Of a stretch of DNA of 64,000 nucleotides, positions 3,001 to 51,980 are shown piece after piece (position 1 is the stretch's first letter; each line of letters opens with the position of its first letter). The notes under the pieces are model-generated. The model searched no databases. It was not told where the DNA came from and saw only the letters and a program-made list of their open reading frames with translations. This DNA comes from Verrucomicrobiota bacterium. Its GTDB lineage: Bacteria > Verrucomicrobiota > Verrucomicrobiia > Verrucomicrobiales > DEV007. Location: assembly GCA_020630975.1 (NCBI GenBank), contig JAHDID010000028.1, forward strand, positions 1-64,000. Direction: 5' to 3'. A program made the position numbers and the translations under genes.

Positions 3001-6000
3001 TCACGGTGTTATTACCGTCGCCGACATTGAGATCGTCGCCGCCAGAGCCGCTGATCACTTCATCCGATCCTGTCCCTGTAGATACGGTGTTGTTGCCGTC
3101 GCCGGTATTGATCGTGTTATCACCATTTCCGGTGGTCACGGTGTCATCGCCACTACCTGAGGTCACATTGTTGTCGCCTTCGCCAGTTGAGACCGCGTTA
3201 TTGCCTTCGCCAGTATCAACTGTGTTGTCACCATCACCTGTATTAATCGAATCATCGCCACCTCCAGAGGTCACTTGGTTGTTACCATCGCCGGTTGAGA
3301 CATTGTTATCACCGTCTCCTGCATCGACAGTATTATTACCACTGCCTGCATCGATGGCATCATCGCCGCTTCCTGAGGTCACGTTGTCATCACCTGCTCC
3401 GGCGCTAACCGTGTTATTGCCATCGCCAACGTTGAGATCATCGCTGCCTGAACCACTGGTTACATTGTCTGATCCTGTACCAGTAGATACGCTATTGTTT
3501 CCATCCCCAGTATTTATGGTGTTATCACCATTGCCTGTGGTCACGGTGTCATCACCGCCTCCGGAGGTTACCTGGTTATTGCCGTCACCCGTTGAAACTG
3601 AGTTATTACCATCACCAGTGTCGACGGTGTTATCTCCGTCTCCGGTGTTGATCGAATCATTACCACCTCCAGAGGTGACTTCATTATTGCCGTCGCCCGT
3701 CGAAACGTTGTTATCACCATCGCCCGCATCCACGGTGTTGTTGCCACTACCCGCGTCGATAGCATCGTTACCACTACCTGAGGTCACATTGTCGTCGCCT
3801 GCTCCGGCGCTGACCGTGTTATTACCATCGCCTACATTCAGATCATCGCTGCCAGATCCGCTAGTCACATCGTCCGACCCAGAACCAGCGTTAACCGCGT
3901 TATCGCCGTCGCCTGTATCAATGGTGTTGTCGCCATTTCCGGTGGTCACCGTGTCGTTACCACTGCCTGATGTTACCTGGTTGTTACCATCGCCAGTAGA
4001 TACGGTGTTGTTACCTTCTCCGGTATTGACTGTATTGTCACCGTCGCCGGTGCTGACAGAATCATCTCCACCACCCGAGGTGACGTTGTTGTTGCCATCG
4101 CCGGTGGACACCGTGTTATTGCCCTCGCCTGTGTCTACGGTGTTATCACCGTCTCCAGTATTGACCGAGTCATTACCGCTTCCGGAGGTGACAGTGTTGT
4201 TTCCGTCGCCCGTGGATACACTGTTATTGCCGTCACCGGTGTCAACAGTGTTGTTTCCGCCACCTGTGCTGACCGAGTCATCCCCGCCACCTGACGTCAC
4301 GCTATTGTCGCCGTCGCCAGTGGAGACATTGTTATCGCCTTCACCTGCGTCGACTGTATTGTTACCACTGCCTGCATCTATGGCATCATTGCCGCCACCC
4401 GACGTCACATTGTCGTCGCCGGCGCCTGCACTGACGGTGTTATTGCCATCGCCGACATTCAAATCATCGCTACCAGAGCCGCTGGTCACTTCGTCGGATC
4501 CAGATCCTGTGTTCACAGCATTATCACCATCTCCGGTGTCGATGGTGTTGTCACCATTGCCAGTGTTGATCGTGTCGTTACCGCTTCCAGAAGTGACATC
4601 ATTATTTCCGTCACCTGTTGAAACGGTGTTATCACCTTCCCCTGTGTCGACTGTGTTGTCACCGTCGCCTGTGCTGACCGAGTCGTTACCACTGCCGGAA
4701 GTGACTTCGTTGTTACCGTCGCCAGTGGACACGCTGTTGTCACCATCGCCAGTATCAACGGTGTTATCACCATCACCGGTGGTGATAGAATCATTCCCGC
4801 CACCAGAAGTGACGTCATTGTTGCCGTCACCAGTTGAAACATTGTTATCACCATCTCCTGCATCAACAGTGTTGTTGCCGCTACCTGCATCGATGGCGTC
4901 ATTGCCGCCACCCGAAGTCACGTTGTCATCGCCAGCGCCTGCACTCACGGTGTTGTTACCATCGCCAACATTGAGGTCGTCGCTACCAGAGCCACTGGTC
5001 ACCTCATCGGAGCCAGATCCTGTGTTTACGGCATTATCACCATCGCCTGTATCAATGGTATTGTCGCCGTTTCCGGTGTTAATGGTATCATTGCCGCTAC
5101 CAGATGTGACATCGTTATTGCCGTCACCTGTTGATACAGTGTTATCACCTTCACCAGTGTCGACTGTGTTGTCGCCGTCACCAGTGCTGACTGAGTCGTT
5201 ACCACTACCGGAAGTGACTTCGTTATTACCGTCGCCTGTGGATACGCTGTTATCGCCATCACCGGTATCGACCGTGTTGTTGCCATCCCCGGTACTGACT
5301 GAGTCATTGCCGCCGCCAGAAGTGACTTCGTTGTCACCATCGCCCGTGGATACGCTATTGTTACCCTCACCAGTGTCGACGGTATTGTCACCATCACCTG
5401 TGCTAACCGAGTCATTACCGCTGCCCGAAGTCACTTCGTTGTTGCCATCTCCTGTGGACACGCTGTTATCGCCTTCTCCAGTATTGACTGTGTTGTTACC
5501 ATCGCCGGCCTCCACGGAGTCATTGCCGCTGCCAGAGGTGACGTTGTTATTTCCTTCTCCAGCGCTCACGGTATTATCACCATCGCCGACATTTAGATTG
5601 TCATCACCAGAACCGCTGGTCACCTCATCGGATCCTGACCCTGTGTTCACAGCATTATCGCCATCGCCGGTATCAATGGTGTTATCGCCATCGCCGGTGC
5701 TAATGGTGTCATTGCCGCTACCAGAGGTGACATCGTTGTTACCGTCACCTGTTGATACAGTGTTATCACCTTCACCAGTGTCGACAGTATTGTCGCCGTC
5801 ACCTGTACTGACTGAGTCGTTGCCACTGCCGGAGGTAACTTCGTTGTTACCATCGCCGGTGGACACACTGTTGTCGCCGTCTCCAGTATCGACTGTATTG
5901 TCGCCATCGCCTGTGCTAACTGAGTCGTTACCGCCGCCTGAGGTCACTTCGTTGTTACCGTCGCCGGTAGACACGCTGTTGTCGCCGTCTCCAGTGTCGA

Positions 6001-9000
6001 CAGTGTTGTCACCGTCACCTGCATTCACGGAGTCATTACCACTTCCCGAGGTGACGTTGTTATTTCCTTCTCCAGCGCTCACGGTATTATCACCATCGCC
6101 GACATCGAGATTGTCATCACCAGAGCCACTGGTCACCTCATCGGAGCCAGACCCTGTGTTCACCGCATTATCACCGTCACCGGTATCGATGGTATTGTCG
6201 CCATCACCGGTGTTAATGGTGTCGTTGCCACTGCCGGAAGTCACTTCGTTGTTGCCATCTCCGGTGGATACACTGTTGTCGCCTTCACCTGTATCAACAG
6301 TATTGTCGCCATCGCCTGCCTCCACAGAGTCATTACCACCTCCCGAAGTGACGGTGTTGTTGCCTTCACCCGCACTGACGGTGTTGTTACCATCGCCAAC
6401 ATTGAGCTGGTCATCGCCTGATCCGCTAGTGACTTGGTCCGATCCAGATCCTGAGTTGACTGCGTTGTCGCCGTCACCGGTATCGATGGTATTATCACCG
6501 TCACCTGTATTAACAGTGTCATTCCCGCTGCCAGACGTCACTTCGTTGTTACCATCGCCGGTGGACACACTGTTGTCGCCGTCTCCAGTATCGACTGTAT
6601 TGTCGCCATCGCCTGTGCTAACTGAGTCGTTACCGCCGCCTGAGGTCACTTCGTTGTTACCGTCGCCGGTAGACACGCTGTTGTCGCCGTCTCCAGTGTC
6701 GACAGTGTTGTCACCGTCACCTGCATTCACGGAGTCATTACCACTTCCCGAGGTGACGTTGTTATTTCCTTCTCCAGCGCTCACGGTATTATCACCATCG
6801 CCGACATTGAGATTGTCATCACCAGAACCGCTGGTCACCTCATCGGAGCCAGACCCTGTGTTCACCGCATTGTCGCCGTCACCGGTATCGATGGTATTGT
6901 CGCCATCGCCGGTGTTAATGGTGTCGTTGCCACTGCCCGAAGTCACTTCGTTGTTGCCATCACCGGTAGAAACGCTGTTATCACCTTCGCCAGTATCAAC
7001 GGTGTTATCACCATCACCAGTGCTGACTGAGTCGTTACCGCTGCCGGAGGTCACTTCGTTGTTGCCATCGCCAGTAGAAACGCTGTTATCGCCCTCGCCA
7101 GTGTCGACGGTGTTATCTCCATCACCAGTGCTAACTGAATCATTACCGCTACCGGAGGTCACTTCGTTGTTGCCATCGCCTGTGGAGACACTGTTGTCGC
7201 CATCTCCGGTGTCGACAGTATTATTCCCGTCGCCCGCCTGCACCGAGTCATTTCCACCGCCAGAGGTGACATTGTTATTCCCTTCGCCGGCACTAACAGT
7301 GTTGTTCCCGCCACCAACGTTAAGGTTATCATCCCCAGAACCACTGGTCACCTCATCAGATCCTGATCCTGAATTTACAGAGTTATTTCCATCGCCAGCA
7401 TCAATCCTATTGTCGCCATCGCCCGTACTGACTGAGTCATTGCCACTACCGGAAGTGATTTCATTGTTGCCATCGCCGGTGGATACACTGTTGTCACCTT
7501 CGCCAGTATCGACTGTGTTATTACCATCGCCTGCCTCTACTGAATCATTTCCGCTGCCAGAAGTTACATTGTTGTTACCCTCACCCGCGCTCACAGTGTT
7601 ATCACCGTCGCCGACATCTAGATTGTCATCACCAGAGCCACTGGTCACTTCATCGGCCCCAGATCCTGTGTTTACCGAATTATCACCATCTCCTGTATCG
7701 ATGGAGTTATTACCATCTCCAGTACTAATGGTGTCATTACCGCCACCAGAGGTGACTTCATTGTTTCCATCTCCAGTGGACACGCTGTTATCACCGTCGC
7801 CAGTGTCGACGGTATTGTCGCCGTCGCCTGCCTCTACGGAGTCATTGCCACCGCCCGAAGTAACCTGGTTATTTCCCTCGCCAGCGCTGACTGTATTATC
7901 ACCATCGCCGACATTCAATTCATCGTCACCTGAACCGCTTGTAACTTCGTCTGAACCAGATCCTGAGTTAACGGCATTATCTCCGTCTCCTGTATCGATG
8001 GTATTGTCGCCGTCCCCTGTGGTGACGGTGTCGTTACCAGAGCCTGATGTCACCTCATTATTACCATCTCCTGTAGAAACGGTGTTATCACCTTCTCCAG
8101 TGTCTACCGTGTTGTCGCCATCGCCGGCACTGACTGAGTCATTTCCGCTACCAGAAGTGACTTCATTATTACCGTCTCCAGTGGACACACTGTTATCGCC
8201 CTCGCCGGTGTCGACAGTGTTATCACCGTCGCCCGCGTTTACTGAGTCATCTCCACTACCAGAAGTGACTTGGTTATTACCTTCTCCAGCGCTGACCGTG
8301 TTGTCGCCATCACCGACATTGAGATTATCGTCACCAGAGCCACTGGTTACTTCATCTGAGCCAGATCCTGCATTCACAGCATTGTCACCATCGCCAGTAT
8401 CAATGGTATTGTCACCATCGCCAGTGTTCACGGTATCATTTCCTTCGCCGGATGTGACGCTGTTGTCTCCATCGCCCAGAGACACGTTATTATTGCCGCC
8501 TCCGGCATCAATACTGTTATCTCCGCTTCCGACCTGAATATTATCATTCCCTCCGCCAGAGGTCACCATATTGTCGCCTTCTCCCGCATCGACGGAGTTA
8601 TCTCCATCGCCTACATTGAAAGCATCATTACCAGCGCCACCGCTGACTTGATCGGCTCCTCCTCCGGTTGTGATGCTATTATCGCCATCGCCCGCATCGA
8701 TCGTATTTTGACCATCTCCCGTGGTTAGAATCACATCGTTACCACCACCGGTTAGGACATTGTTGTTACCACTGCCTGCGTCGATATTATTATTTCCGCC
8801 GGATGACTGGATGACATCATTTCCTGAACCAGAGAAAATGTTGTCATTGCCAGCACCTGTAGTTACCTGGTTATTACCTTCTCCGGCAGTGATGGTGTTG
8901 TCCCCCGACTTGGCATTGATGATGTCATTTCCCGATCCACCACTGTAGATGCCAGCAGCTTCCTGAGAGCTGTCGCCATCCATCATAGAGGACATGCCTG

Positions 9001-9430
9001 AAGCTAAGCCTTCCCCATCCGCATCTTGTCCATCCGCACCTAAATTTTCGCCTGAATTCAGGTAGTCGACATTGACCATGCGCATCAGCGTCAAACCATC
9101 GGCATGGACCTGCTTTCCAAATAACGACTCTCGGTCGTCCCCCTCTTCAGCAGCTTCATTGGCCTCATCAGCCTGCAGGGTGGCTGTGATTGGCTCGGCT
9201 TGCTTGTCTACCTCTGAGAAGAAATTCTCTAGACGGATCTCATTGCCGGTGGGCAGCACAATGATTAGGTCGGATCCATCAGGACGAAAATCTGCTTTAA
9301 CCGGCACACCGGTCTCGTCTACGACTTTGATGTCGTCACCAGGGAGAACGGGGATTGAGTTATTGAAGTCTTCGTCGAGTTCAAAACTGACGGACGTACC
9401 GTCAGGACGGGAGATCAAGAGTTGGTTCAT
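1..9430 (-). CDS. Giant RTX-like repeat protein, C-terminus beyond left edge
   Basis: Read on the minus strand from the ATG at 9430, one open frame of 3143 codons runs to the window edge without a stop. Residues 1 to about 75 form a non-repetitive domain containing DLIIVLPTGNEIRLENFF, a pattern resembling the prefix domain of BapA-type surface adhesins. An acidic linker follows to about residue 160. The rest is roughly 330 glycine/aspartate nonapeptides such as TGDGDNTVS, SGSGDDNLN and AGEGNNQVT, which match the GGxGxDxUx calcium-binding beta-roll consensus. No signal peptide is visible, so type I secretion with a C-terminal signal is the usual route for this class; the C-terminus and any ABC exporter lie outside the window. 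Calcium-dependent folding and an adhesin or surface-layer role are inferences. The Shine-Dalgarno match is weak. Plus-strand frames across this region, including one of about 7.5 kb, are antisense shadows. Confidence 0.9.
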   Translation of the reverse strand, partial: MNQLLISRPDGTSVSFELDEDFNNSIPVLPGDDIKVVDETGVPVKADFRPDGSDLIIVLPTGNEIRLENFFSEVDKQAEPITATLQADEANEAAEEGDDRESLFGKQVHADGLTLMRMVNVDYLNSGENLGADGQDADGEGLASGMSSMMDGDSSQEAAGIYSGGSGNDIINAKSGDNTITAGEGNNQVTTGAGNDNIFSGSGNDVIQSSGGNNNIDAGSGNNNVLTGGGNDVILTTGDGQNTIDAGDGDNSITTGGGADQVSGGAGNDAFNVGDGDNSVDAGEGDNMVTSGGGNDNIQVGSGDNSIDAGGGNNNVSLGDGDNSVTSGEGNDTVNTGDGDNTIDTGDGDNAVNAGSGSDEVTSGSGDDNLNVGDGDNTVSAGEGNNQVTSGSGDDSVNAGDGDNTVDTGEGDNSVSTGDGNNEVTSGSGNDSVSAGDGDNTVDTGEGDNTVSTGDGNNEVTSGSGNDTVTTGDGDNTIDTGDGDNAVNSGSGSDEVTSGSGDDELNVGDGDNTVSAGEGNNQVTSGGGNDSVEAGDGDNTVDTGDGDNSVSTGDGNNEVTSGGGNDTISTGDGNNSIDTGDGDNSVNTGSGADEVTSGSGDDNLDVGDGDNTVSAGEGNNNVTSGSGNDSVEAGDGNNTVDTGEGDNSVSTGDGNNEITSGSGNDSVSTGDGDNRIDAGDGNNSVNSGSGSDEVTSGSGDDNLNVGGGNNTVSAGEGNNNVTSGGGNDSVQAGDGNNTVDTGDGDNSVSTGDGNNEVTSGSGNDSVSTGDGDNTVDTGEGDNSVSTGDGNNEVTSGSGNDSVSTGDGDNTVDTGEGDNSVSTGDGNNEVTSGSGNDTINTGDGDNTIDTGDGDNAVNTGSGSDEVTSGSGDDNLNVGDGDNTVSAGEGNNNVTSGSGNDSVNAGDGDNTVDTGDGDNSVSTGDGNNEVTSGGGNDSVSTGDGDNTVDTGDGDNSVSTGDGNNEVTSGSGNDTVNTGDGDNTIDTGDGDNAVNSGSGSDQVTSGSGDDQLNVGDGNNTVSAGEGNNTVTSGGGNDSVEAGDGDNTVDTGEGDNSVSTGDGNNEVTSGSGNDTINTGDGDNTIDTGDGDNAVNTGSGSDEVTSGSGDDNLDVGDGDNTVSAGEGNNNVTSGSGNDSVNAGDGDNTVDTGDGDNSVSTGDGNNEVTSGGGNDSVSTGDGDNTVDTGDGDNSVSTGDGNNEVTSGSGNDSVSTGDGDNTVDTGEGDNTVSTGDGNNDVTSGSGNDTISTGDGDNTIDTGDGDNAVNTGSGSDEVTSGSGDDNLNVGDGDNTVSAGEGNNNVTSGSGNDSVEAGDGNNTVNTGEGDNSVSTGDGNNEVTSGSGNDSVSTGDGDNTVDTGEGNNSVSTGDGDNEVTSGGGNDSVSTGDGNNTVDTGDGDNSVSTGDGNNEVTSGSGNDSVSTGDGDNTVDTGEGDNTVSTGDGNNDVTSGSGNDTINTGNGDNTIDTGDGDNAVNTGSGSDEVTSGSGSDDLNVGDGNNTVSAGAGDDNVTSGGGNDAIDAGSGNNTVDAGDGDNNVSTGDGNNDVTSGGGNDSITTGDGDNTVDTGDGDNSVSTGDGNNEVTSGSGNDSVSTGDGDNTVDTGEGDNTVSTGDGNNDVTSGSGNDTINTGNGDNTIDTGDGDNAVNTGSGSDEVTSGSGSDDLNVGDGNNTVSAGAGDDNVTSGGGNDAIDAGSGNNTVDAGEGDNNVSTGDGDNSVTSGGGDDSVSTGGGNNTVDTGDGNNSVSTGDGNNTVTSGSGNDSVNTGDGDNTVDTGEGNNTVSTGDGNNNVTSGGGDDSVSTGDGDNTVNTGEGNNTVSTGDGNNQVTSGSGNDTVTTGNGDNTIDTGDGDNAVNAGSGSDDVTSGSGSDDLNVGDGNNTVSAGAGDDNVTSGSGNDAIDAGSGNNTVDAGDGDNNVSTGDGNNEVTSGGGNDSINTGDGDNTVDTGDGNNSVSTGDGNNQVTSGGGDDTVTTGNGDNTINTGDGNNSVSTGTGSDNVTSGSGSDDLNVGDGNNTVSAGAGDDNVTSGSGDDAIDAGSGNNTVDAGDGDNNVSTGDGNNQVTSGGGDDSINTGDGDNTVDTGEGNNAVSTGEGDNNVTSGSGDDTVTTGNGDNTINTGDGNNTVSTGTGSDEVISGSGGDDLNVGDGNNTVSAGAGDDSVTSGSGNDAIDAGSGNNTVDAGDGDNNVSTGDGNNEVTSGSGNDSINTGDGDNTVDTGAGDNSVSTGDGNNNVTSGGGDDTVTTGNGDNTIDTGDGNNTVSTGTGSDNVTSGSGSDDLNVGDGNNTVSAGAGDDNVTSGSGNDSVDAGSGNNTVDAGEGDNTVSTGDGNNQVTSGEGNDSINTGDGENTVDTGEGNNSVSTGDGNNSVTSGGGDDTVTTGNGDNTINTGDGNNTVSTGTGSDNVTSGSGSDDLNVGDGDNTVSAGAGDDNVTSGSGNDSVDAGSGNNTVDAGEGDNTVSTGDGNNQVTSGGGNDSINTGDGDNTVDTGEGDNSVSTGDGNNQVTSGSGDDTVTTGNGDNTINTGDGNNSVTSGSGADNVTSGSGSDDLNVGDGNNTVSAGAGDDNVTSGSGNDAIDAGSGNNTVDAGEGDNTVSTGDGNNNVTSGGGDDTVTTGNGDNTINTGDGNNSVTSGSGSDNVTSGSGSDDLNVGDGNNTVSAGAGDDSVTSGSGNDAIDAGSGNNTVDAGEGDNNVSTGDGNNDVTSGGGDDTVTTGNGDNTINTGDGNNSVTSGSGADNVTSGAGSDDLNVGDGDNTVSAGAGDDNVTSGSGNDSVDAGSGNNTVDAGEGNNTVSTGDGDNQVTSGGGDDSINTGDGNNTVDTGEGNNSVSTGDGNNSVTSGSGDDTVTTGNGDNTINTGDGNNTVTTGTGADSVTSGSGSDDLNVGDGNNTVSAGAGDDSVTSGSGNDAIDAGSGNNTVDAGEGDNAVSTGGGNNTVTSGGGNDTVTTGNGDNTIDTGDGNNTVSTGTGSDNVTSGSGSDNLNVGDGNNTVSAGAGDDNVTSGSGSDSVDAGSGNNTVDAGDGDNTVSTGDGNNNVTSGGGDDTVTTGNGDNTINTGDGNNTVSTGTGSDNVTSGSGSDNLNVGDGDNTVSAGAGDDNVTSGSGNDSVDAGSGNNTVDAGEGDNTVTTGDGNNQVTSGGGNDSISTGDGDNTVD
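2..8950 (-). repeat. Nested tandem repeat array: 27, 108 and 297+108n bp
   Basis: The coding repeats have a 27-bp basic unit (9 residues). A marker unit, seen on the plus strand as a GACATT-like word, recurs at 215, 512, 809, 1214, 1511, 1808, 2213, 2618, 3023, 3428, 3833, 4454, 4967, 5588, 6101, 6398, 6803, 7316, 7613, 7910 and 8315. All intervals are 297, 405, 513 or 621 bp, which is 297 plus 0, 1, 2 or 3 times 108. So an 11-unit cassette is expanded by whole 4-unit blocks. Copies differ at many synonymous positions while the peptide pattern is kept. Confidence 0.9.
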
Positions 9431-9763
9431 AAAATCCGGGGGATAAATTTTATGAAAAATATAAACCAGCAGAGCTATAAGGAAATTTTATTATGGATTT
9501 TATGAAAAATTCTTTTATTATGGCTGAAAACATTTTCATGACTCGCGATCATTCTTGCGAAATCATGTGCTTTAGAGCGGTGCACTTCTCTTTTTCCCTA
9601 ATTATTTAGATGGGCCGAATTTCCAGTTTCTCGTCTTAAGACAAATTCAGCTTCTAACAGGCAGATTCATCAGCGCAAGAATCGCTCATCCTCCTTTTGA
9701 CCATGAGCCAAAGGGGGTGTTAGGTTCGCGCCCAATTTGTAGGAAAAATCTCACTCACTCGAT
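9431..9763. promoter_or_regulatory. Divergent intergenic region with 14-bp direct repeat
   Basis: This 333-bp AT-rich gap separates the divergent RTX gene and ileS, so both promoters should lie here. A 14-bp word, ATTTTATGAAAAAT, occurs exactly at 9447-9460 and again at 9497-9510, 50 bp apart on the same strand and close to the RTX start. It could be a regulator site for the RTX gene. I see no convincing sigma-70 boxes, no RNA gene and no small reading frame worth calling. Confidence 0.4.
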
Positions 9764-12565
9764 ATGAGCAAAAAGAAAGAAGACGGCGCCGCCGATAGCC
9801 AATACAAGGATACGCTGAACTTGCCCGACACCGAGTTCCCCATGCGGGGAAATCTGGTGCAGCGCGAGCCGATCCGGCTAGAAGAGTGGGAAAAGATCGA
9901 TATCTACCGCCAGGTCGTCGACAAGCGCAAAGCCGACGGCTGTCCCACCTACATGCTGCACGATGGCCCCCCTTTCGCTAATGGCGATGTCCACATGGGC
10001 ACAGCGCTGAATAAGGTGCTCAAGGACCTGGTGCTGAAGAGTAAATCGATGGCGGGCTACCACTGCCCCTACGTGCCGGGCTGGGACTGCCATGGTCTCC
10101 CGATCGAGTTCAAGGTGGTGAAAGAATCCAAGGGACTATCACCTGCCGAGATCCGTACCAAGGCGGAGGCGTTTGCCCGTGGCTGGATAGATACGCAGCG
10201 CAGTTCTTTCCGACGTCTCGGTGTGTTCGCAGACTGGGAGAATCCCTATCTGACACTTGCCCCTGAGTATGAGGCCGACATCATCCGCGTCTTTGCCCAG
10301 CTCATCGACAAGGATCTAGTGTACCAGAGCAAAAAGCCGGTTCAGTGGAGCTACGGTGCACAGACTGCACTAGCCGAGGCCGAAGTGGAGTACGAGGACA
10401 AGAAGGACCTTGCGATATATGTGAAGTTCCCTATCACAACCGGTGATCTGGCTGGCAAGTCAAACATGGTCATCTGGACAACCACTCCATGGACCCTACC
10501 GGCAAACCTTGGCATCGCCCTACACCCGCGTCTTAAGTATGTGCAAGGAACCTTCGTACATGAAGAGAAGGATCTTAAAGACAACTTCGTCATCGTCGAG
10601 GATCTGCTCAGTGCATTCGAGGCGAAGACCGGCTTCAAGCCCGCTGGCGAACTAAATGAGATCCAGGGCGAAGACCTCGAGGGCGTCTTGACTCAGCATC
10701 CATTCCTCGATCGCACTTCGCGCATCATCATGGCCGACTTTGTCACCACTGAGACCGGTACCGGTGCGGTGCACATCGCCCCAGGTCATGGCTCCGATGA
10801 CTACATCGCAGGAATGAACAACGATCTCGGACTGCTCTCCCCTGTCGACGACGAGGGCCGCTACACCGACGAAGTAGGCGTAGACGACCTAGTAGGTGAG
10901 CACGTATTCGACTGCAATGTTCCGATCATCAAGATCTTAGCAGGCGAAGGCAATCTGATCGGCAAGGAAAAGTACAATCACAGCTATCCTCATTGCTGGC
11001 GGTCAAAAACTCCAATCATATTCCGCTCAGTACCACAATTTTTCATCAAAATCGATGAGCTACGCAAAACAGCCCTCGACGAAATCGATAAAGTAAGCTG
11101 GCTGCCACACTGGGGACAGAACCGGATCAAAGGAACCGTCGAGTCTCGTCCCGACTGGTGTATCTCTCGCCAGCGTACCTGGGGCGTGCCACTGCCAGTA
11201 TTCTTCGCACCCAATTCTGATGTGCCCACTATCGATGCCGAGATAGCACGCAAGGTAGCCGACCTGATAGAGGATGGCGGGACCAATTTGTGGTTCGAAA
11301 AGGACGACGCCTGGTGGGCTGAGCAGGTTGGTTTAGAGGCAGGATCACGCCGCTGCCAGGACACGCTCGATGTGTGGATCGACTCCGGATCTAGCCACGT
11401 AGCTGTCATGGATAGGCACCCCGAGCTACATGCTCCAGCAGATCTGTACCTAGAGGCGACCGATCAGCACCGAGGCTGGTTCCAGAGCTCACTCATGCTA
11501 TCGACAGCAGTGCGCGATGCCGCTCCGTACAAGCAAGTCATGACCCACGGCTTCGTCGTACGTCGCGCGACCAAAGAGGAAAATGCCGACCGAAAAAAGC
11601 AAGGCCTAGAGCCAGCGAAGAACCTGAAAGTCTCAAAGTCAGACCCCGGCGGAGGCAAGCCAATGACGGCTGCCTATTTCTACGACAAATTCGGTGCCGA
11701 CATCATCCGTCTGTGGGCAGGTTCCGTGGATTGGCAGAATGAAGTCCCATTCAGTGAAGATATTTTCAAGCAAGCAGCTGAGCCATATCGCCGCTTCCGC
11801 AATATTCTGCGCATCCTGCTCGCAAATCTGAATGACTTTGATGCTGAGAAAGACACCGTCAGCGCCGAGCATTTCACCACCATCGATCGCTGGGTACTCG
11901 AGCGTCTACACCAGGTAGTCGTCGAGTGTCGCGAGGCTTATGAGGCCTTTGAATTCCGCAAAGTCTTCAATGTGCTCAACCAATTCTGCGCTAGCGATCT
12001 GAGTGCGCTGTATGTCGACATCACCAAAGACCGCATGTACTGCGACGCTGCCGACAGCCCACGCCGCCGTGCCACACAGACCGTGATGCACGAGGTATTT
12101 GGCTCGATGGTGCGCCTGCTGGCACCGATCCTCGCCTACACAGCTGAGGAGGCTTGGGAATTCGCTGGCAATGAGACCTCTGTGCACCTCGAGCTTTTCC
12201 CCGAGGCCGATGCCGACTACGCAGGCACGGAGGCTACCGAAAAGATCGACGCTCTATCCGAGCTGCGCGACCTCGCGCAGGTGCAGGTGGATGCAGCGAT
12301 CAAAGCTGACGAATTCAACAAGCGCGAGCTCGCAGCCGTGGTATTCGACCTGCCGAAAGGTCATGCCGGCATCGACCTGATCGAGAACAATCTAGAGGAA
12401 ACTCTGGAATTCCTGATGCTGTCGAAAGCCGAGATCGGCAAGACCGATGCCGATGCTGCAGCAGCCACCGTCACTCAGACAGATCTGCCTGAGTGCCCTC
12501 GCTGCCGCCGCTCGATCGCCCTCGTCGATGAGTGCTGCGACCGCTGCTCTGCAGTGGTTTCGTAA
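9764..12565 (+). CDS. ileS: Isoleucyl-tRNA synthetase
   Basis: This 933-residue class I aminoacyl-tRNA synthetase charges tRNA-Ile with isoleucine in the cytoplasm. The ATP-binding signature appears as HDGPPFANGDVHMGTALNK, with HMGT at 77-80 in the HIGH position, and the second signature as KVSKS at 622-626. The middle section, including TTTPWTLPAN and the GTGAVHIAPGHG motif, is the CP1 editing domain that hydrolyses Val-tRNA. The C-terminus carries a zinc knuckle with cysteines at 911, 914, 925 and 928 (CxxC-x10-CxxC), as in bacterial IleRS. Length and domain order are normal for the family. The gene stands alone and is convergent with the RND operon, with a strong hairpin between them. No T-box leader is visible upstream. 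Confidence 0.98.
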   Translation: MSKKKEDGAADSQYKDTLNLPDTEFPMRGNLVQREPIRLEEWEKIDIYRQVVDKRKADGCPTYMLHDGPPFANGDVHMGTALNKVLKDLVLKSKSMAGYHCPYVPGWDCHGLPIEFKVVKESKGLSPAEIRTKAEAFARGWIDTQRSSFRRLGVFADWENPYLTLAPEYEADIIRVFAQLIDKDLVYQSKKPVQWSYGAQTALAEAEVEYEDKKDLAIYVKFPITTGDLAGKSNMVIWTTTPWTLPANLGIALHPRLKYVQGTFVHEEKDLKDNFVIVEDLLSAFEAKTGFKPAGELNEIQGEDLEGVLTQHPFLDRTSRIIMADFVTTETGTGAVHIAPGHGSDDYIAGMNNDLGLLSPVDDEGRYTDEVGVDDLVGEHVFDCNVPIIKILAGEGNLIGKEKYNHSYPHCWRSKTPIIFRSVPQFFIKIDELRKTALDEIDKVSWLPHWGQNRIKGTVESRPDWCISRQRTWGVPLPVFFAPNSDVPTIDAEIARKVADLIEDGGTNLWFEKDDAWWAEQVGLEAGSRRCQDTLDVWIDSGSSHVAVMDRHPELHAPADLYLEATDQHRGWFQSSLMLSTAVRDAAPYKQVMTHGFVVRRATKEENADRKKQGLEPAKNLKVSKSDPGGGKPMTAAYFYDKFGADIIRLWAGSVDWQNEVPFSEDIFKQAAEPYRRFRNILRILLANLNDFDAEKDTVSAEHFTTIDRWVLERLHQVVVECREAYEAFEFRKVFNVLNQFCASDLSALYVDITKDRMYCDAADSPRRRATQTVMHEVFGSMVRLLAPILAYTAEEAWEFAGNETSVHLELFPEADADYAGTEATEKIDALSELRDLAQVQVDAAIKADEFNKRELAAVVFDLPKGHAGIDLIENNLEETLEFLMLSKAEIGKTDADAAAATVTQTDLPECPRCRRSIALVDECCDRCSAVVS

Positions 12566-12574
12566 AAAAAGACG

Positions 12575-12613
12575 AAATTCAATAGGGTACAATTTTGAGT
12601 GAATAGGGTACAA
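12575..12613 (+). repeat. Paired AATAGGGTACA element, copy 1
   Basis: Two direct copies of AATAGGGTACA start at 12581 and 12602, exactly 21 bp apart, preceded by AAATTC and TG. The same arrangement recurs at 22744, 34531 and 50133. This copy lies just after the ileS stop codon, and its second half is the left arm of the downstream terminator hairpin. Confidence 0.85.
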
Positions 12614-19744: not shown

Positions 19745-19978
19745 ATGCGGCCTTGTCTCGATTACATGAATAGAGTGGCCCTAATTCTGGCGGTGTCAAC
19801 ACGGGCAGGATACGCGAGGTTGTCTGGGAATACAAATGCAAACGGAGACAGGCGAAAAGTAAAAGAAAACTTCGCTACTTCGGAAAGTAAAACTCTCTAA
19901 ACCTCCCAAACTACATGACAGAATTTTAATGCAGTGTTCATTTTTTTGAATTAAGCCTTTTCCTGAACACGCGACATC

Positions 19979-21034
19979 ATGAGAAACCCTAGACTGATCT
20001 TAGATCCAGAGGCTTGCGCCTACCATTGCATCACTCGCTGTGCGGGGCAGGCCTGGCTGTTTGATACTCCAGCTAGGCGGAGTGGTATCCAGCAGATTAT
20101 CTTCGCTGCTGCAGAGCTCAGAGGTGTGGAGCTAATCAACTATGCGATCCTCTCCAATCATCTGCATATTCTAGCCCGAATCCCTAGCCAGAAATCCCTG
20201 ACACCGCTTTCCAAAGACAGCATCATACGCTGTACTAAGGTCTTGTATCGCACAGATTGGGTGAGTGACCCCGAATCTGAGTTCGCCTCAGCCGAGAAGC
20301 TCGATAGGAGACGCTCTGACAATCATCACAGCCAAAAGATCCTCGATCGATTCGAGCAGAAAAGAGCCGATCTCTCCGGTTTCATGAAAGAGGTGAAGGA
20401 GCGTATCACTCGCTACATTAACAAAGAGCACAAGCGTAAAGGAGCCCTCTGGGATGGCCGCTTCAAAAGTGTGGTAGTGGAAAACACTCCACGAGCATTG
20501 CTAGCGGTATCGACCTACATCGATCTCAATGCTGTCCGAGCAGGCATCGTCGATCGTCCAGAGGACTACCGTTGGTGCGGTTATGCGGCTGCCCTCGGCG
20601 GGGATAGGAAAGCCCGCTCTGGATTAGCTAGCATCTATGGCCACCGAGGTGGCAGCAAAGACATCTCATGGTCGAGTATAGCAGCTGACTATCGCCAGTT
20701 TCTATACGAAAACGGACAACAGCAACAGGCGGAACCGAGCCGAGGCATAAAAGCTCGCAGAGGTATCACAGAGGCGTCTGTCCATAAGGAAATCTCTCGG
20801 CGCGGCCGTCTCCCGATCCATGAGGTGATGCACTATCGCGTGCGCTACTTCACCGATGGAGTCATTATCGGCTCTAGAGAGTTCGTCGATCAAGTGTTTG
20901 ATGATCATCGAGGTGGGTTGACCGCACCGAACTCGCAACGGGAAACAGGCGCTCGACCGATGCGCTGGGCCAACTGGTCAGGGCTGTGCAGCCTACGAGA
21001 CCTCCGATTAGAGATCATCAGTCAATTGCATTGA
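19979..21034 (+). CDS. REP-associated tyrosine transposase (RAYT, Y1 HUH family)
   Basis: This 351-residue protein belongs to the single-strand HUH nucleases related to IS200/IS605 TnpA. The HUH metal site is H61-L62-H63 in YAILSNHLHILARIP, and the likely catalytic tyrosine is Y146 in ERITRYINKEH, followed by the typical GALWDGRFKSVVVE segment and the STYIDLNAVRAGIV, PEDYRWCGYA motif. RAYTs bind and cleave REP hairpins and are usually single-copy, domesticated genes. Here no IS ends or accessory tnpB are present, but many REP-like hairpins occur in this window, and related CGCCTGTCCC boxes lie on both sides of the gene. The extended C-terminal part (from about 230) contains a further conserved-looking helix region with REFVDQVF. 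Full length and apparently intact. Confidence 0.92.
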   Translation: MRNPRLILDPEACAYHCITRCAGQAWLFDTPARRSGIQQIIFAAAELRGVELINYAILSNHLHILARIPSQKSLTPLSKDSIIRCTKVLYRTDWVSDPESEFASAEKLDRRRSDNHHSQKILDRFEQKRADLSGFMKEVKERITRYINKEHKRKGALWDGRFKSVVVENTPRALLAVSTYIDLNAVRAGIVDRPEDYRWCGYAAALGGDRKARSGLASIYGHRGGSKDISWSSIAADYRQFLYENGQQQQAEPSRGIKARRGITEASVHKEISRRGRLPIHEVMHYRVRYFTDGVIIGSREFVDQVFDDHRGGLTAPNSQRETGARPMRWANWSGLCSLRDLRLEIISQLH

Positions 21035-21304
21035 ATACTCACTGCTGCTGGCTAGTGATCCGCGAAACATTAGACAGCAGGCGCTACAAGAAGCCTATGC
21101 CTCCTCAGGTGACACCGTCTGGCACCAGTGAATAATCGCGTCGTCGCCTCCAGTATAAAACCCTATTTGCCTGCAGGAAAGGGTAGGTAAGCCAAATCTG
21201 GTGCTAAAGTTGAAGGAGAACTGTTCTCACTCGGCCAGTTTCCAACGACTTCAGCGGAGGATCTTCAATTTCTAAACAACAACAAGCCGCTCACCTCTAC
21301 ATTT
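21035..21304. other. Intergenic region after RAYT, nothing recognised
   Basis: About 270 bp between the RAYT stop and the motif array. I see no credible gene, RNA or strong terminator. A short interrupted coding-like segment after the RAYT stop (with LQVTPSGTSE-like content) is too weak to call. Confidence 0.3.
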
Positions 21305-21404
21305 CGCCTGTCCCCTTTTACCCATCCCCATTTACCCACAATTCGCCTGCCCCCATTTACCCAACAGTCCCCATTTACCCAACAGTCCCCATTTACCCAA
21401 CACA
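21305..21404. repeat. Array of CCCC(A/T)TTTACCC boxes, right side of RAYT
   Basis: Five boxes of the form CCCCATTTACCC (first one CCCCTTTTACCC) occur at 21312, 21326, 21351, 21369 and 21387. The last three are an exact 18-bp tandem repeat with unit CCCCATTTACCCAACAGT. Two are preceded by CGCCTG, matching the left-side box at 19204. The minus strand is rich in runs of three or four G with 5-6-nt spacers and could form a G-quadruplex. Confidence 0.85.
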
Positions 21405-22743: not shown

Positions 22744-22783
22744 AAATTCAATAGGGTACAGTTTTGAGTGAATAGGGTACAAT
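22744..22783 (+). repeat. Paired AATAGGGTACA element, copy 2
   Basis: AATAGGGTACA begins at 22750 and 22771, exactly 21 bp apart. Over 39 bp this copy differs from copy 1 (12575) by one base, at 22761. It lies in the noncoding stretch next to the intron remnant. Confidence 0.85.
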
Positions 22784-22951
22784 TGCCCGGATCTGTCGTT
22801 TGGGGAGGGGGAGGAGAAGTCCCACTATTCGGTCGGGATGCCTGATTTCCCGAGCAGGCGCTGATTCAGAATGATGATCGAGTGTATACACCGATCGTGG
22901 TGAGTGATTTTTTTTTGCTCTTTGCTGACTCGAAGGTTGGCAAGGGTAGCT

Positions 22952-22970
22952 GGGCGACGAGACGTCGCCC
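22952..22970. repeat. REP-like hairpin GGGCGACG/CGTCGCCC
   Basis: Arms GGGCGACG and CGTCGCCC around AGA, followed by CTCCTTGAG. The same stem with compensatory variants occurs at 35156-35174 (GGGCGACA/TGTCGCCC) and 51616-51634. Confidence 0.7.
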
Positions 22971-22985
22971 CTCCTTGAGCGGGGT

Positions 22986-31788: not shown

Positions 31789-34700
31789 ATGCCCAGCACC
31801 ACCGCCTTTACCGAACTCCACGCTCGCTCTGCCTTCAGCTTCCTACGCGGCTCGTCGCAGCCTGAGGATCTGGTCGCCCGTGCTGCGCAGCTGGGCATGG
31901 GACGGGTCGCGGTGTTGGACCGGGATGGGGTGTATGGATCGGCGCGGGTGCACCATGCGGGCAAGGAGCTGGGGGTGAGCGGTATCGTCGGTGCGGAGGT
32001 GACGATGGCCGATGGCTCGGCGCTGCCGGTGCTGGTGAAAAGCCGCCAGGGCTACCAGAATCTGTGCCAGCAGATCACCCGCATGCAGCTGCGTGCAGAG
32101 AAAGGCGAGGGCCGAGTCGGCTGGAGTGAATGGGACGATGGTCGTGCCGAGGGACTGATGTGTCTGACTGGCGACGAGGAGGGTCCCGTGCGCCGAGCGC
32201 TGGAGCGTGGCGATCGGCAGCTGGCGCAGGAGTACACCCAGCGGCTGGTACAGCTATTTGGCAGGGAGAATGTCGCCGTGGAGGTGCAGCGCCACCTGAC
32301 CCGAGGCGAGCGCCATATCAATAACTGCCTGCGCGATCTGGCCGAGACCGAGGGGCTGCGCGTGGTGGCTAGCAATGGCGTGTGCTACGCCGAGCGCACT
32401 AGCCGCCTACTGCAGGATGCCTTTACCTGCCTACGCCATTACACCCATCTCGACCAGGCAGGCCGCCTGCTGGGGCGAAACTGCGAGCGCCACCTGAAGA
32501 GCGGTCAGCAGATGGCCGAGCTATTCGCCGACTGGCCAGAGGCGGTTGAGAATACCGCGCGCATCGCCGATGAGCTGGAGTTTGGCCTGGAGAATCTCGG
32601 TTATGAGTTCCCCAAATTTCCCACTGGAGAGGGCGAGACCATGGCCGATGTGCTGCGCCGCGAGACCTACATCGGTGCCGAGCGCCGCTATGGCACGGTC
32701 ACGCCCAAGATCAAAAAACAGCTCGAGCACGAGCTACGCATCATCGGGCAGCTGGGGTTTTGCGGCTACTTCCTCATCGTAAAGGATATCGTCGACTACG
32801 CGCGTAGCGATGGGGTGCTGGTACAGGGGCGAGGCAGCGCGGCGAATAGCGCGGTGTGCTACTGCCTAGGCATCACGGCGGTGGATGCGATCAAGCAGGA
32901 GTTGCTGTTTGAGCGATTCCTCAGCGAGGGACGCGAGAGCTGGCCAGATATCGATCTCGATCTACCCAGCGGCGAGCGGCGCGAGCGAGTGATCCAGCAC
33001 GTCTACCAAAAGTATGCCCCACGCGGCGCAGCGATGACGGCCAACGTCATCACCTACCGGGGGCGCAGCGCCATGCGCGAGATGGGCAAGGTGCTGAACC
33101 TGCCAGAGGATGTCATGGGTCGCTTCTCCGATCTCTACGGGCACGGCGATTTTCCCCACACCCTGGAGCTGGACGAGCAGATCCAGAAAGCCGGTCTCGC
33201 TGGCGATCACCCACGCCTGCCTGCGCTGGTCACCCTACTGCAGCAGGTCTACGGGCTGCCTAGGCATCTCGGCCAACACTCCGGCGGCATGATCATATCC
33301 GATCGCCCGCTCGATACCGTGGTGCCGCTGGAGAATGCCAGCATGCCCGGCCGTGTGGTAGTGCAGTGGGACAAAGACGACTGCGAGGACCTGGGTATCG
33401 TAAAGGTCGACTTACTCGGCCTAGGCATGATGGCTGCCATCCAGGATACCGTGGAGCTGTGCCGGGTTCGTGGCGATGGCCGAGAGTTCGACCTACACAC
33501 CATCCCACAGGACGATCCCGCTGTGTACGAGATGGCCTCAGCGGCGGATACTATCGGCGTGTTTCAGGTAGAAAGCCGCGCCCAGCAGGCCACCCTGCCG
33601 CGCATGCAGCCACGCTGCTTTTACGATCTGTGTGTGGAGGTAGCCCTGATCCGGCCTGGCCCCATCGTCGGCAATATGGTGCACCCCTACCTAAACCGCC
33701 GCCAGGGAAAGGAGCCGATCGACTACATACACCCCAGCTTCGAGGGCGTGCTAAAACGTACCCTCGGCGTGCCTATCTTTCAGGAACAGGTGCTGCAGAT
33801 GGCCATGATGATCGCCGATTTCACCGGCTCGCAGGCCGAGGAACTGCGCCGCGCGATCAGCTTCAATCGATCCGACGTGCGCATGCGCAAAGTCATGAAC
33901 AAGCTGCGCGCTGCGATGACGGCCAAGGGCGTGGAGGAAGAAGTACAGCAAAAGATCATCACCTCCATCCAGTCCTTCGCCCTCTACGGTTTCCCCGAGA
34001 GCCACGCCATCAGCTTTGCCCTGCTCGCCTACGTCAGCATCTGGCTAAAGGTGCATCGCCCAGCGGAATTCTACACCGCGTTGATCAATAACCAGCCGAT
34101 GGGCTTTTACTCCGTCGCTACTCTCATCAAAGATGCTGAGCGCCACGACATAAAGATCAAACCCGTCTGCGTCGAGCAGAGCGACTACGACACCACCGTA
34201 GAGAGCGACACCGAGATCCGCCTAGGCCTACGCCAGGTCAAAGGTCTAGATCGCGATGCTGCCGCCCGCATCGTCTACCAGCGCGCCCTAGCCGACTGGA
34301 CCAGTCTCGACGACTTTCTCCAGCGCACCCATATCCAGAAAGACCAGCGCCGCGTGTTGGCTAAGATCGGCGCGCTCAATTGCCTAGCCGAGCATCGGCG
34401 AGATGCGCTGTGGCGGGCAGAGAGTTTTCTCGATGCTGGGGACTTGTTTGCCTGGGCGGCGGCTTCGTCGCCTAGGGGAGGAGTGGAGGAGGTGCGAGGG
34501 GAGGAGGCGGGAATCTCTGCCTCTGAAGACAAATTCAATAGGGTACAGTCTGGACTGAATAGGGTACAATCGACTGTTCGCGATCGTAGAGGCGGCTTTC
34601 CAGCCGCCTCATCACTGCCCAATGCTGACACGGCGGCTGGAAAGCCACCGCTACGCCCGATGAACCCCATGGAGCGCCTGCACGCCGACTACGAGGGGCT

Positions 34701-35073
34701 CGACCTGACTACTGGCAAGCACCCGATGGGCTACATCCGCTCTGGCCTGCCGCATATCTGGACGGCTAAAGCCCTGCAACTCGGCAAACACGGCGACCGT
34801 GTGCAGATAGCCGGACTCGTGATCTGTCGGCAACGCCCCGGCACGGCCAAGGGCAATCTATTCGTAAGCTTGGAGGATGAGACTGGCATCGCCAATGCCT
34901 TCGTGCCCTCTACGGTTTACGAGAAAAACCGCCTAGTCATCACTCAAGAAGCGTTTCTACAGATCTCCGGCTACCTACAAAAAGTCGATGCCGTGACCTC
35001 TGTATTTACCGAGCATGTCGAGGTGCTGGAATTTGGCGCAGCGCTACAGACGCAGTCGCATGATTTTCACTAG
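31789..35073 (+). CDS. dnaE2: Error-prone DNA polymerase III alpha subunit with in-frame repeat insert
   Basis: This 1094-residue C-family polymerase is of the DnaE2/ImuC type, which performs translesion synthesis in the mutasome with ImuB. The N-terminal PHP-like domain begins ELHARSAFSFLRGSSQPEDL, the degenerate form typical of DnaE2. The catalytic core holds PDIDLDLPS (D387, D389) and VKVDLLGLGMM, then a helix-hairpin-helix region and an OB domain near LVICRQRPGTAKGNLFVSLE. Between WRAESFLDAGDL and NPMERLHADYEGLDLTTGKHP, normal DnaE2 proteins have a short linker. Here about 60 extra residues are encoded by a paired AATAGGGTACA element and two opposed REP hairpins, all in frame. imuA and imuB are not adjacent. 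SOS control is typical of the family, but I could not place a confident LexA box. Confidence 0.95.
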   Translation: MPSTTAFTELHARSAFSFLRGSSQPEDLVARAAQLGMGRVAVLDRDGVYGSARVHHAGKELGVSGIVGAEVTMADGSALPVLVKSRQGYQNLCQQITRMQLRAEKGEGRVGWSEWDDGRAEGLMCLTGDEEGPVRRALERGDRQLAQEYTQRLVQLFGRENVAVEVQRHLTRGERHINNCLRDLAETEGLRVVASNGVCYAERTSRLLQDAFTCLRHYTHLDQAGRLLGRNCERHLKSGQQMAELFADWPEAVENTARIADELEFGLENLGYEFPKFPTGEGETMADVLRRETYIGAERRYGTVTPKIKKQLEHELRIIGQLGFCGYFLIVKDIVDYARSDGVLVQGRGSAANSAVCYCLGITAVDAIKQELLFERFLSEGRESWPDIDLDLPSGERRERVIQHVYQKYAPRGAAMTANVITYRGRSAMREMGKVLNLPEDVMGRFSDLYGHGDFPHTLELDEQIQKAGLAGDHPRLPALVTLLQQVYGLPRHLGQHSGGMIISDRPLDTVVPLENASMPGRVVVQWDKDDCEDLGIVKVDLLGLGMMAAIQDTVELCRVRGDGREFDLHTIPQDDPAVYEMASAADTIGVFQVESRAQQATLPRMQPRCFYDLCVEVALIRPGPIVGNMVHPYLNRRQGKEPIDYIHPSFEGVLKRTLGVPIFQEQVLQMAMMIADFTGSQAEELRRAISFNRSDVRMRKVMNKLRAAMTAKGVEEEVQQKIITSIQSFALYGFPESHAISFALLAYVSIWLKVHRPAEFYTALINNQPMGFYSVATLIKDAERHDIKIKPVCVEQSDYDTTVESDTEIRLGLRQVKGLDRDAAARIVYQRALADWTSLDDFLQRTHIQKDQRRVLAKIGALNCLAEHRRDALWRAESFLDAGDLFAWAAASSPRGGVEEVRGEEAGISASEDKFNRVQSGLNRVQSTVRDRRGGFPAASSLPNADTAAGKPPLRPMNPMERLHADYEGLDLTTGKHPMGYIRSGLPHIWTAKALQLGKHGDRVQIAGLVICRQRPGTAKGNLFVSLEDETGIANAFVPSTVYEKNRLVITQEAFLQISGYLQKVDAVTSVFTEHVEVLEFGAALQTQSHDFH
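34531..34570 (+). repeat. Paired AATAGGGTACA element, copy 3, inside dnaE2
   Basis: AATAGGGTACA begins at 34537 and 34558, again exactly 21 bp apart, here seven codons. The two copies encode the peptide NRVQS twice (N917 and N924). Flanks AAATTC and CTG match the other copies; the 10 bases between the two motifs differ. Confidence 0.9.
34589..34657. repeat. Pair of opposed REP-like hairpins inside dnaE2
   Basis: GAGGCGGCT (34589-34597) pairs perfectly with AGCCGCCTC (34602-34610) around TTCC. A second, imperfect GGCGGCT hairpin in the opposite orientation lies at 34632-34651 and ends in GCTACG. Together they resemble a two-REP unit and encode residues of the dnaE2 linker (GGFPAASSL and AAGKPPLRP). 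Confidence 0.85.
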
Positions 35074-35198
35074 CCTGTTGGCTCGCCAGCTCCAAGGAAG
35101 GGTGCACGTGTCGTCGCCCGGCAGGCTGAGCACAAAGGCTTCGGCCGAGGTAGCCGGGCGACAAGATGTCGCCCCTCCTTGGTAGGCATTGCCCTACT
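35074..35198. repeat. REP-like pair downstream of dnaE2
   Basis: GGGCGACA/TGTCGCCC (35156-35174) forms a hairpin followed by CTCCTT. A copy in the opposite orientation, with GTCGTCGCCCGGCAGGCTGAG, less its first base, lies at about 35110-35131. The pair fills most of the gap between convergent genes and may act as terminator. Confidence 0.65.
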
Positions 35199-50132: not shown

Positions 50133-50170
50133 ATTCAATAGGGTACACAAAACACTCAATAGGGTACAAT
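50133..50170 (+). repeat. Paired AATAGGGTACA element, copy 4
   Basis: AATAGGGTACA begins at 50137 and 50158, exactly 21 bp apart, preceded by ATTC and CTC. It lies just after the DUF1501 stop. A REP-like hairpin follows 16 bp later. Confidence 0.85.
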
Positions 50171-51560: not shown

Positions 51561-51980
51561 ATATAACGAAGAGGTGGAGACAAAAGAAGGCTCCCCACCA
51601 ACCAAGACCAAGGAGGGGCGACGTCTCGTCGCCCGGCAGGCTGAGCCAATTGCCCGAGCACGATGGCTGGAGGCCTTGGACGGGAGTCTGCGCAACCTCG
51701 CCTATGAGATCAAGGAGGGGCTGCCTTCAGCTGCCCGGCAACAAGAGCCAATACCTAAGAGCGATGGCTGGAGTCTTATGCAGCCCGGCGACGGGACGTG
51801 CGCCGCTCCTTGAGCGGGAGTCTGCGCAACCTCGCCTCCTTGAGGCCAGAAGCCCCAGATAGCATCATAATGCAAGACGTCACTCCCTCCATAGCTGATA
51901 GCCTCAAAAACCCGACAGGAGGGAAGCCGATCAACTACAAGTTGATCCTACGTTGGGTCAGCTTGCAGCTGAGCCAACGC
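51561..51980. repeat. Intergenic REP cluster with 23-bp direct repeats
   Basis: This 420-bp gap has GGGCGACG/CGTCGCCC (51616-51634), GGGGCTGCCTTCAGCTGCCC (about 51717-51736) and a GCCCGGCGACGGG-type unit near 51784. A 23-bp word beginning CGGGAGTCTGCGCAACC is repeated exactly at 51681-51703 and 51815-51837, 134 bp apart. No gene is seen. The left part follows the phosphoesterase gene; the right end is the 3' flank of the convergent SGNH gene. Confidence 0.7.

Follow-up and report, generated by a model that had tools for sequence, protein, structure and literature searches.

The dnaE2 gene discussed here raises a simple question: how does an error-prone polymerase come to carry a tandem DNA repeat, translated, in the midst of its reading frame, and what is that repeat doing there? 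The gene lies in the window that we analyzed, a stretch of 64,000 nucleotides (G000:C3:1-64000) from a Verrucomicrobiota assembly, G000, of 7.14 Mb in 158 contigs.

The linker of DnaE2

DnaE2, an error-prone DNA polymerase III alpha of 1094 aa (NF004225 match), is encoded on the + strand at 31789-35073, and the frame is open throughout, linker insert included. Its Pfam domains are PHP, DNA_pol3_alpha, finger, HHH_6 (788-872) and, weakly matched, an OB fold (1005-1080). Between HHH_6 and the OB fold sits a long linker that, measured from LAKIGALN to ICRQ, comprises 159 aa. In a close relative, G005, whose DnaE2 is 78% identical, it has 104 aa, and in further relatives that align comparably, 101-130 aa. 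The extra DNA that is missing from the G005 orthologue amounts to ~55 codons net and spans 34456-34653 (+) by alignment, with approximate ends. An earlier note on this DNA had claimed additional residues without stop or frameshift, and rightly so: the linker is longer than in G005 and in all other relatives compared.

Inside the linker a G/A-rich stretch comes first, then the tandem array, then a strong inverted repeat (34585-34655). The G/A-rich stretch, GGGGAGGAGTGGAGGAGG... (34473-34508, +), is 92% identical over 36 bp to noncoding DNA at G000:C33:169236. The array, ATTC-AATAGGGTACA-GTCTGGACTG-AATAGGGTACA-AT (34533-34570, +), has two units with a 21-bp period and is translated FNRVQSGLNRVQS. 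Its cores (34537-34547 and 34558-34568) are in frame, with the peptide NRVQSGLNRVQS. That this pair, 21 bp apart, lies in frame, and that the period, a multiple of three, preserves the reading frame, had both been correctly noted.

The arms of the inverted repeat, 24 nt each, lie at 34585-34608 (+; GTAGAGGCGGCTTTCCAGCCGCC) and, as an inverted copy, at 34632-34655 (-). They are 92% complementary, with an RNA fold of -52 kcal/mol (z -7.8). Their core, GGCGGCTTTCCAGCC, occurs 21 times in the whole G000 genome at <=1 mismatch, against 0 in the reversed control, twice in a sister species, G025, and four times in G005; opposed pairs of it are also found on G000 contigs C79 and C81. Copies that are dispersed, and often arranged in opposed pairs, mark a REP-like family, and the dnaE2 hairpins belong to one, of low copy number. 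The two opposed REP hairpins reported to follow the paired element are indeed present, and 'REP-like' is a fair label for a small family. The further idea that the two repeat types were nested together stands in part: they are adjacent in dnaE2, but nesting is not a general property. Strong hairpins flank 0/70 arrays on the left and 2/70 on the right, no commoner than in other intergenic DNA (1.2-1.6%), and on these 70 arrays we reject a general association. The DnaE2 linker of G025 contains neither hairpins nor G/A-rich stretch. Because G025 has an array at the same spot all the same, the array predates both.

Copies, constraint and spacing

The insert in dnaE2 is but one of hundreds of places that carry such an array. 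The window has eight exact AATAGGGTACA cores, where 0.32 single cores are expected by chance, and they form four pairs, all with 21-bp spacing. Besides the pair in dnaE2, one lies between convergent genes (12581-12612, +), one at 22750-22781 (+), with a right flank (~55-60 bp) common to the array at G000:C33:120088, and one 14 bp past a stop codon (50137-50168, +). Genome-wide there are 422 pairs at <=2 mismatches (235 forward, 187 reverse; reversed-pattern control, 0), and a looser pattern, AGGGTAC-N13-16-AGGGTAC, yields 373 (reversed-pattern controls, 0). Layout statistics were taken from 1.59 Mb of G000 (22% of the genome) and 278 kb of G025. The 1.59 Mb hold 70 arrays, 56 of them with two units, 13 with three and one with four. 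Nearly all AATAGGGTACA cores stand in tandem, and the period in the first 1.22 Mb is 21 bp, with a sole exception of 22.

Units follow the consensus YTS-AATAGGGTACA-RT. The spacer between them, rich in T, is variable, its positions differing in up to 60% of copies. Relaxed detection over the 22 core positions returned 74, 9, 4, 6 and 0 pairs with 0, 1, 2, 3 and 4 mismatches (controls, 0), and no tail of degenerate copies rose above control. Array edges fade gradually, without sharp ends. Because the core is invariant, the spacer variable, the decayed tail absent and the edges soft, we read the arrays as recognized sites and not as a neutrally decaying repeat. The two flanks of arrays show no strong signal of inverted or duplicated base pairs such as would point to target duplication. 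Arrays are mostly intergenic and follow no strand rule relative to genes. Regions between convergent genes hold more than their share of them (17 of 48 intergenic arrays versus 87 of 574 intergenic regions); these classes are approximate, since genes were called with a home-made Markov ORF finder.

The main point, which the earlier note missed, is the even genome-wide spacing of the arrays, together with the species dialects described below. In the first 1.22 Mb of G000, the 47 gaps between arrays on the same contig average 20.2 kb (CV 0.58); the shortest measures 6,063 bp, and none is <5 kb. If arrays were placed at random in intergenic DNA, ~14 gaps <5 kb and a CV of 1.05 would be expected, and 0 of 5,000 simulations matched. 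Over the full 1.59 Mb, the 55 gaps have a mean of 20.9 kb, the same minimum of 6,063 bp and a CV of 0.56 (P<=1/5000). Array density in G000 is ~1 per 13-21 kb. In G025, too, the 22 arrays found within 278 kb are spaced more evenly than chance would have it (P ~0.003).

That repeats of this kind enter coding DNA, as had been claimed from dnaE2, is borne out by two more intragenic arrays. In menD (TIGR00173), three units at residues ~311-330, between two conserved blocks, are translated from the opposite strand as YPIQEKLYPIESKLYPIES (KLYPIES repeats); in an ORF of 1,971 aa without family match, an array pair is read as SVGYSFDSIGYN. What is kept in intragenic arrays is the DNA signal, not the peptide, and the dnaE2 and menD copies mean that constraint on this signal is strong enough to pass through coding sequence in tolerant linkers.

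Some arrays adjoin longer repeats. At G000:C40:62422, C9:51083 and C15:179710, a 413-bp noncoding repeat (~82% identical, with internal palindromes) starts exactly at the array, on its right side, and the other flank differs among the arrays. The arrays at G000:C33:120088, C31:168432 and window position 22750 resemble a mosaic jointed at the array, the first sharing a 188-bp left flank with the second and ~55 bp on the right with the third. These long noncoding repeats stop at arrays as if arrays bounded other rearrangements. A 309-bp block found in two species (G000:C32:10104 and G018:C118:1848; 85% identity, with adjoining genes that otherwise differ) has an old-style array, its cores ending GTACG, at one end. 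The window holds further repeats: 27-bp-periodic (9-residue) ones at 1-12500, with >130 overlapping register matches at >=60% identity, that probably belong to a giant repetitive protein gene; a ~1.5-kb repeat at ~19837-21322, 90% identical to C15:92422-93909 and probably an insertion sequence; and another dispersed inverted-repeat family, GGGCGACGAGACGTCGCCCCTCCTTG, at 22949-22977, 35153-35183 (just after dnaE2) and 51607-51637. Near an IS21-like locus of G000 (C36 5022-8735; L165), repeats AATGGTGTCAGGTGAATT recur several times.

A second dialect in a sister species

G025 and the public MAG JARGOZ01 ('Verrucomicrobiales bacterium isolate bin_ji_oxhcr1.018') are the same genome (match coordinates agree). 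In the DnaE2 tree G025 is the sister of G000 (support 0.996), with G005 outside. Once other spacings are allowed, G025 has 734 pairs, with the core AACAGGGTACA and a period of 22 bp; some of its arrays include inverted units. In its DnaE2 (79% identical), the same linker holds four units of 22 bp, oriented as in G000; three periods come to 66 bp, which is likewise divisible by three. The comparison of DnaE2 orthologues that the earlier note had called for comes out both ways, then: G005 and other relatives are without the array, but the sister has one, in its own dialect, in the same linker. For this reason we take the dnaE2 array to be ancestral to G000 and G025; and because G005 and the others are without the family, we regard it as belonging to an older set of recognition sites that is specific to this lineage and co-evolves, rather than as an insertion of recent date that arose by chance.

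Other sites are shared, too, in the same orientation: an intergenic one with both flanks orthologous (C39:158209 in G000, C204:45879 in G025), one at the selA start codon (G000 C1:50364, G025 L372), one upstream of a small ORF and a TatD-like gene (G000 C33:133814, G025 L356) and, more loosely, one at G000 C5:27918 and G025 C198:15629. Of some 22 testable positions ~4-5 are shared, and ~15-18 other neighborhoods are not. From density alone, chance should yield ~1 coincidence within 500 bp, and far fewer at the precision seen in dnaE2 or selA. Common descent of part of the array set is likely, though not proven, since the sample is small and sites that tolerate change may coincide.

Beyond these two species the family fades. 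The fixed 21-bp pattern leaves only traces elsewhere in the genus, and among 33 congeners searched with a variable-spacing pattern, no genome except G025 rises above traces. Among 388 Verrucomicrobiota genomes sampled, G000 included, there was besides G000 only one isolated, dissimilar match. Tandem copies of AGGGTAC in Acidobacteria, Chloroflexi and elsewhere proved to be low-complexity or different repeats, JARGOZ01 alone being of the same kind, and plasmids, phages and viral contigs gave no array matches. A de novo search of 300 kb of G005 found no recurrent tandem word, and thus no other dialect. G005 does have, without the family, a single composite place (C84 ~11251-11297) with three similar cores, palindromic and GTACAGGGTACAGT-like.

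Proposed recognition, its alternatives and known systems

We think it very likely, with a probability of roughly 0.85, that the dnaE2 array is one of a chromosome-wide set of sites read by a sequence-specific DNA-binding protein. Both the existence of such a protein, reading at least two units on a single DNA face, and its purpose are inferred. Each site is a tandem of at least two 17-bp units, two helical turns apart, which would place protomers on the same DNA face. Our best guess at function, put forward tentatively, is self-recognition of the uptake-signal kind. A receptor would favor DNA that carries the array signal, biased recombination would spread and homogenize the signal until dialects formed, and a second array within one transferred tract would gain nothing, whence the even spacing. 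In dnaE2 the array occupies a tolerant inter-domain linker, where it is simply translated. ComEC is present in G000 and G025, but it does not discriminate, because genomes without arrays have it too. Even spacing of hundreds of sites, combined with a dialect switch between sister species, calls for either direct selection on distance or a drive, be it from bias in uptake or in recombination.

The arrays might also be regarded, with some reserve, as a ruler: several hundred tandem binding sites that a dedicated DNA-binding protein would keep at a minimum spacing of ~6 kb (mean ~20 kb), its specificity and helical register having shifted, together with all of the sites, between the sisters. If true, this would be a new type of chromosome-organizing or self-recognition system in Verrucomicrobiota. 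G000 and G025, which differ in a core base and in helical period, make a natural pair in which to look for the binding protein and to test how a protein and hundreds of its sites change together.

It is possible, though we rather doubt it, that the arrays are architectural or segregation sites: a nucleoid protein would bind the tandem units and divide the chromosome into intervals of ~20 kb, with matS-like logic applied genome-wide and the spacing itself under direct selection. Such a protein would account for most of the same data as uptake does, namely the even spacing with close neighbors avoided, the near-invariant core, the lack of strand preference, the enrichment between convergent genes and not at promoters, and the positions common to both species. 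It sits poorly with so sporadic a distribution, G005 and other congeners being without arrays, and with the many positions that G000 and G025 do not share; without some means of spreading, moreover, it is difficult to see how hundreds of sites could have changed both core and period at once. The arrays could also be a neutral mobile repeat (SDR/MITE-like), recently expanded, for which dnaE2 was a random insertion tolerated by the linker; there are, after all, hundreds of copies in one lineage, three of them inside ORFs. Uniform decay and random spacing, the expectations for such a family, were both tested and neither was found: core contrasts with spacer, decayed copies are lacking, the spacing is even, and the dnaE2 position recurs in G025 in a changed dialect. 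We consider a neutral repeat very improbable.

Less improbable, but unlikely all the same, is that the arrays are ends or remnants of Mu-, Tn7- or IS21-like transposons, the solo arrays being tiny non-autonomous copies kept apart by target immunity. Target immunity, a property of Tn7, would impose a minimum spacing. For Mu, cis-immunity is described in PMC7350765. Tandem sites of ~21-22 bp with TGT...-type termini do resemble the ends of AAA+-assisted transposons, and three arrays have the 413-bp right flank in common and two the 188-bp left flank that ends at the array. The units are direct, however, and not inverted at two ends; their edges fade; some positions are common to species of ~79% identity; and none occur in plasmids or phages. 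Neither G000 nor G025 has a match to a Mu-transpos_C DDE transposase, and since a pair of inverted, sharply bounded ends flanked by target duplications is not seen either, an origin in Mu/Tn7-like ends is unlikely. IS21 ends were rejected as a source, too: the sole complete IS21 IstB locus (C36) has other ends, and no motif within 1.5 kb. Direct repeats 21 bp apart are, lastly, typical of AraC/XylS operators, and some arrays abut start codons (selA), as they might in a transcription-factor regulon; an RNA element acting as a 3'-end signal may be thought of as well. Operators of the AraC type belong upstream of promoters, but the excess is between convergent genes, not in divergent regions, there is no orientation rule relative to genes, even spacing is not expected, and no strong Rfam match supports an RNA element. 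We find a regulon or RNA element scarcely credible.

The arrays suggest a chromosome-wide recognition system absent from the literature searched, where, at the level of titles and abstracts, the motif string turns up by chance and such repeats are not described. Iterons and the end-binding arrays of Mu/Tn7-type elements are also direct repeats of 20-22 bp, or two helical turns, read repeatedly by one protein; the present arrays differ in being dispersed at hundreds of loci, with no replicon, transposase or inverted partner end. Chromosome-organizing sites of the matS type are likewise short, conserved, mostly intergenic and strung along the chromosome, but matS occupies one domain whereas the arrays cover the whole genome, in tandem units, and are limited to two sister species. 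REP/BIME palindromes are matched by the hairpins beside the dnaE2 array (21 cores in the genome), and those are not generally associated with arrays, which are themselves direct repeats without hairpin or palindromic unit. Cyanobacterial short dispersed repeats (SDR, STRR) are very small, dispersed and sometimes inside genes, as the arrays are; we know of no counterpart among them to the even spacing, fixed register and invariant core.

The DUS of Neisseriaceae and the USS of Pasteurellaceae, for which even distribution and single-base dialects are known (PMC7811141, PMC3630211), occur in another phylum, and an uptake role here is a putative one. USS, a single-motif unit, has a density of ~1 per kb (PMC7811141); the arrays are 15-20 times sparser, at 1 per 13-21 kb, and need at least two units in a strict 21/22-bp register, which is not a DUS/USS trait. 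In both there is a short invariant core with softer flanks, over-represented in hundreds of copies on both strands, at permissive intergenic sites, relatively evenly distributed, with species dialects about one base apart (AATAGGGTACA/21 bp versus AACAGGGTACA/22 bp). An uptake signal does not fit the density or the tandem register of the arrays; it does fit their even distribution and their dialects.
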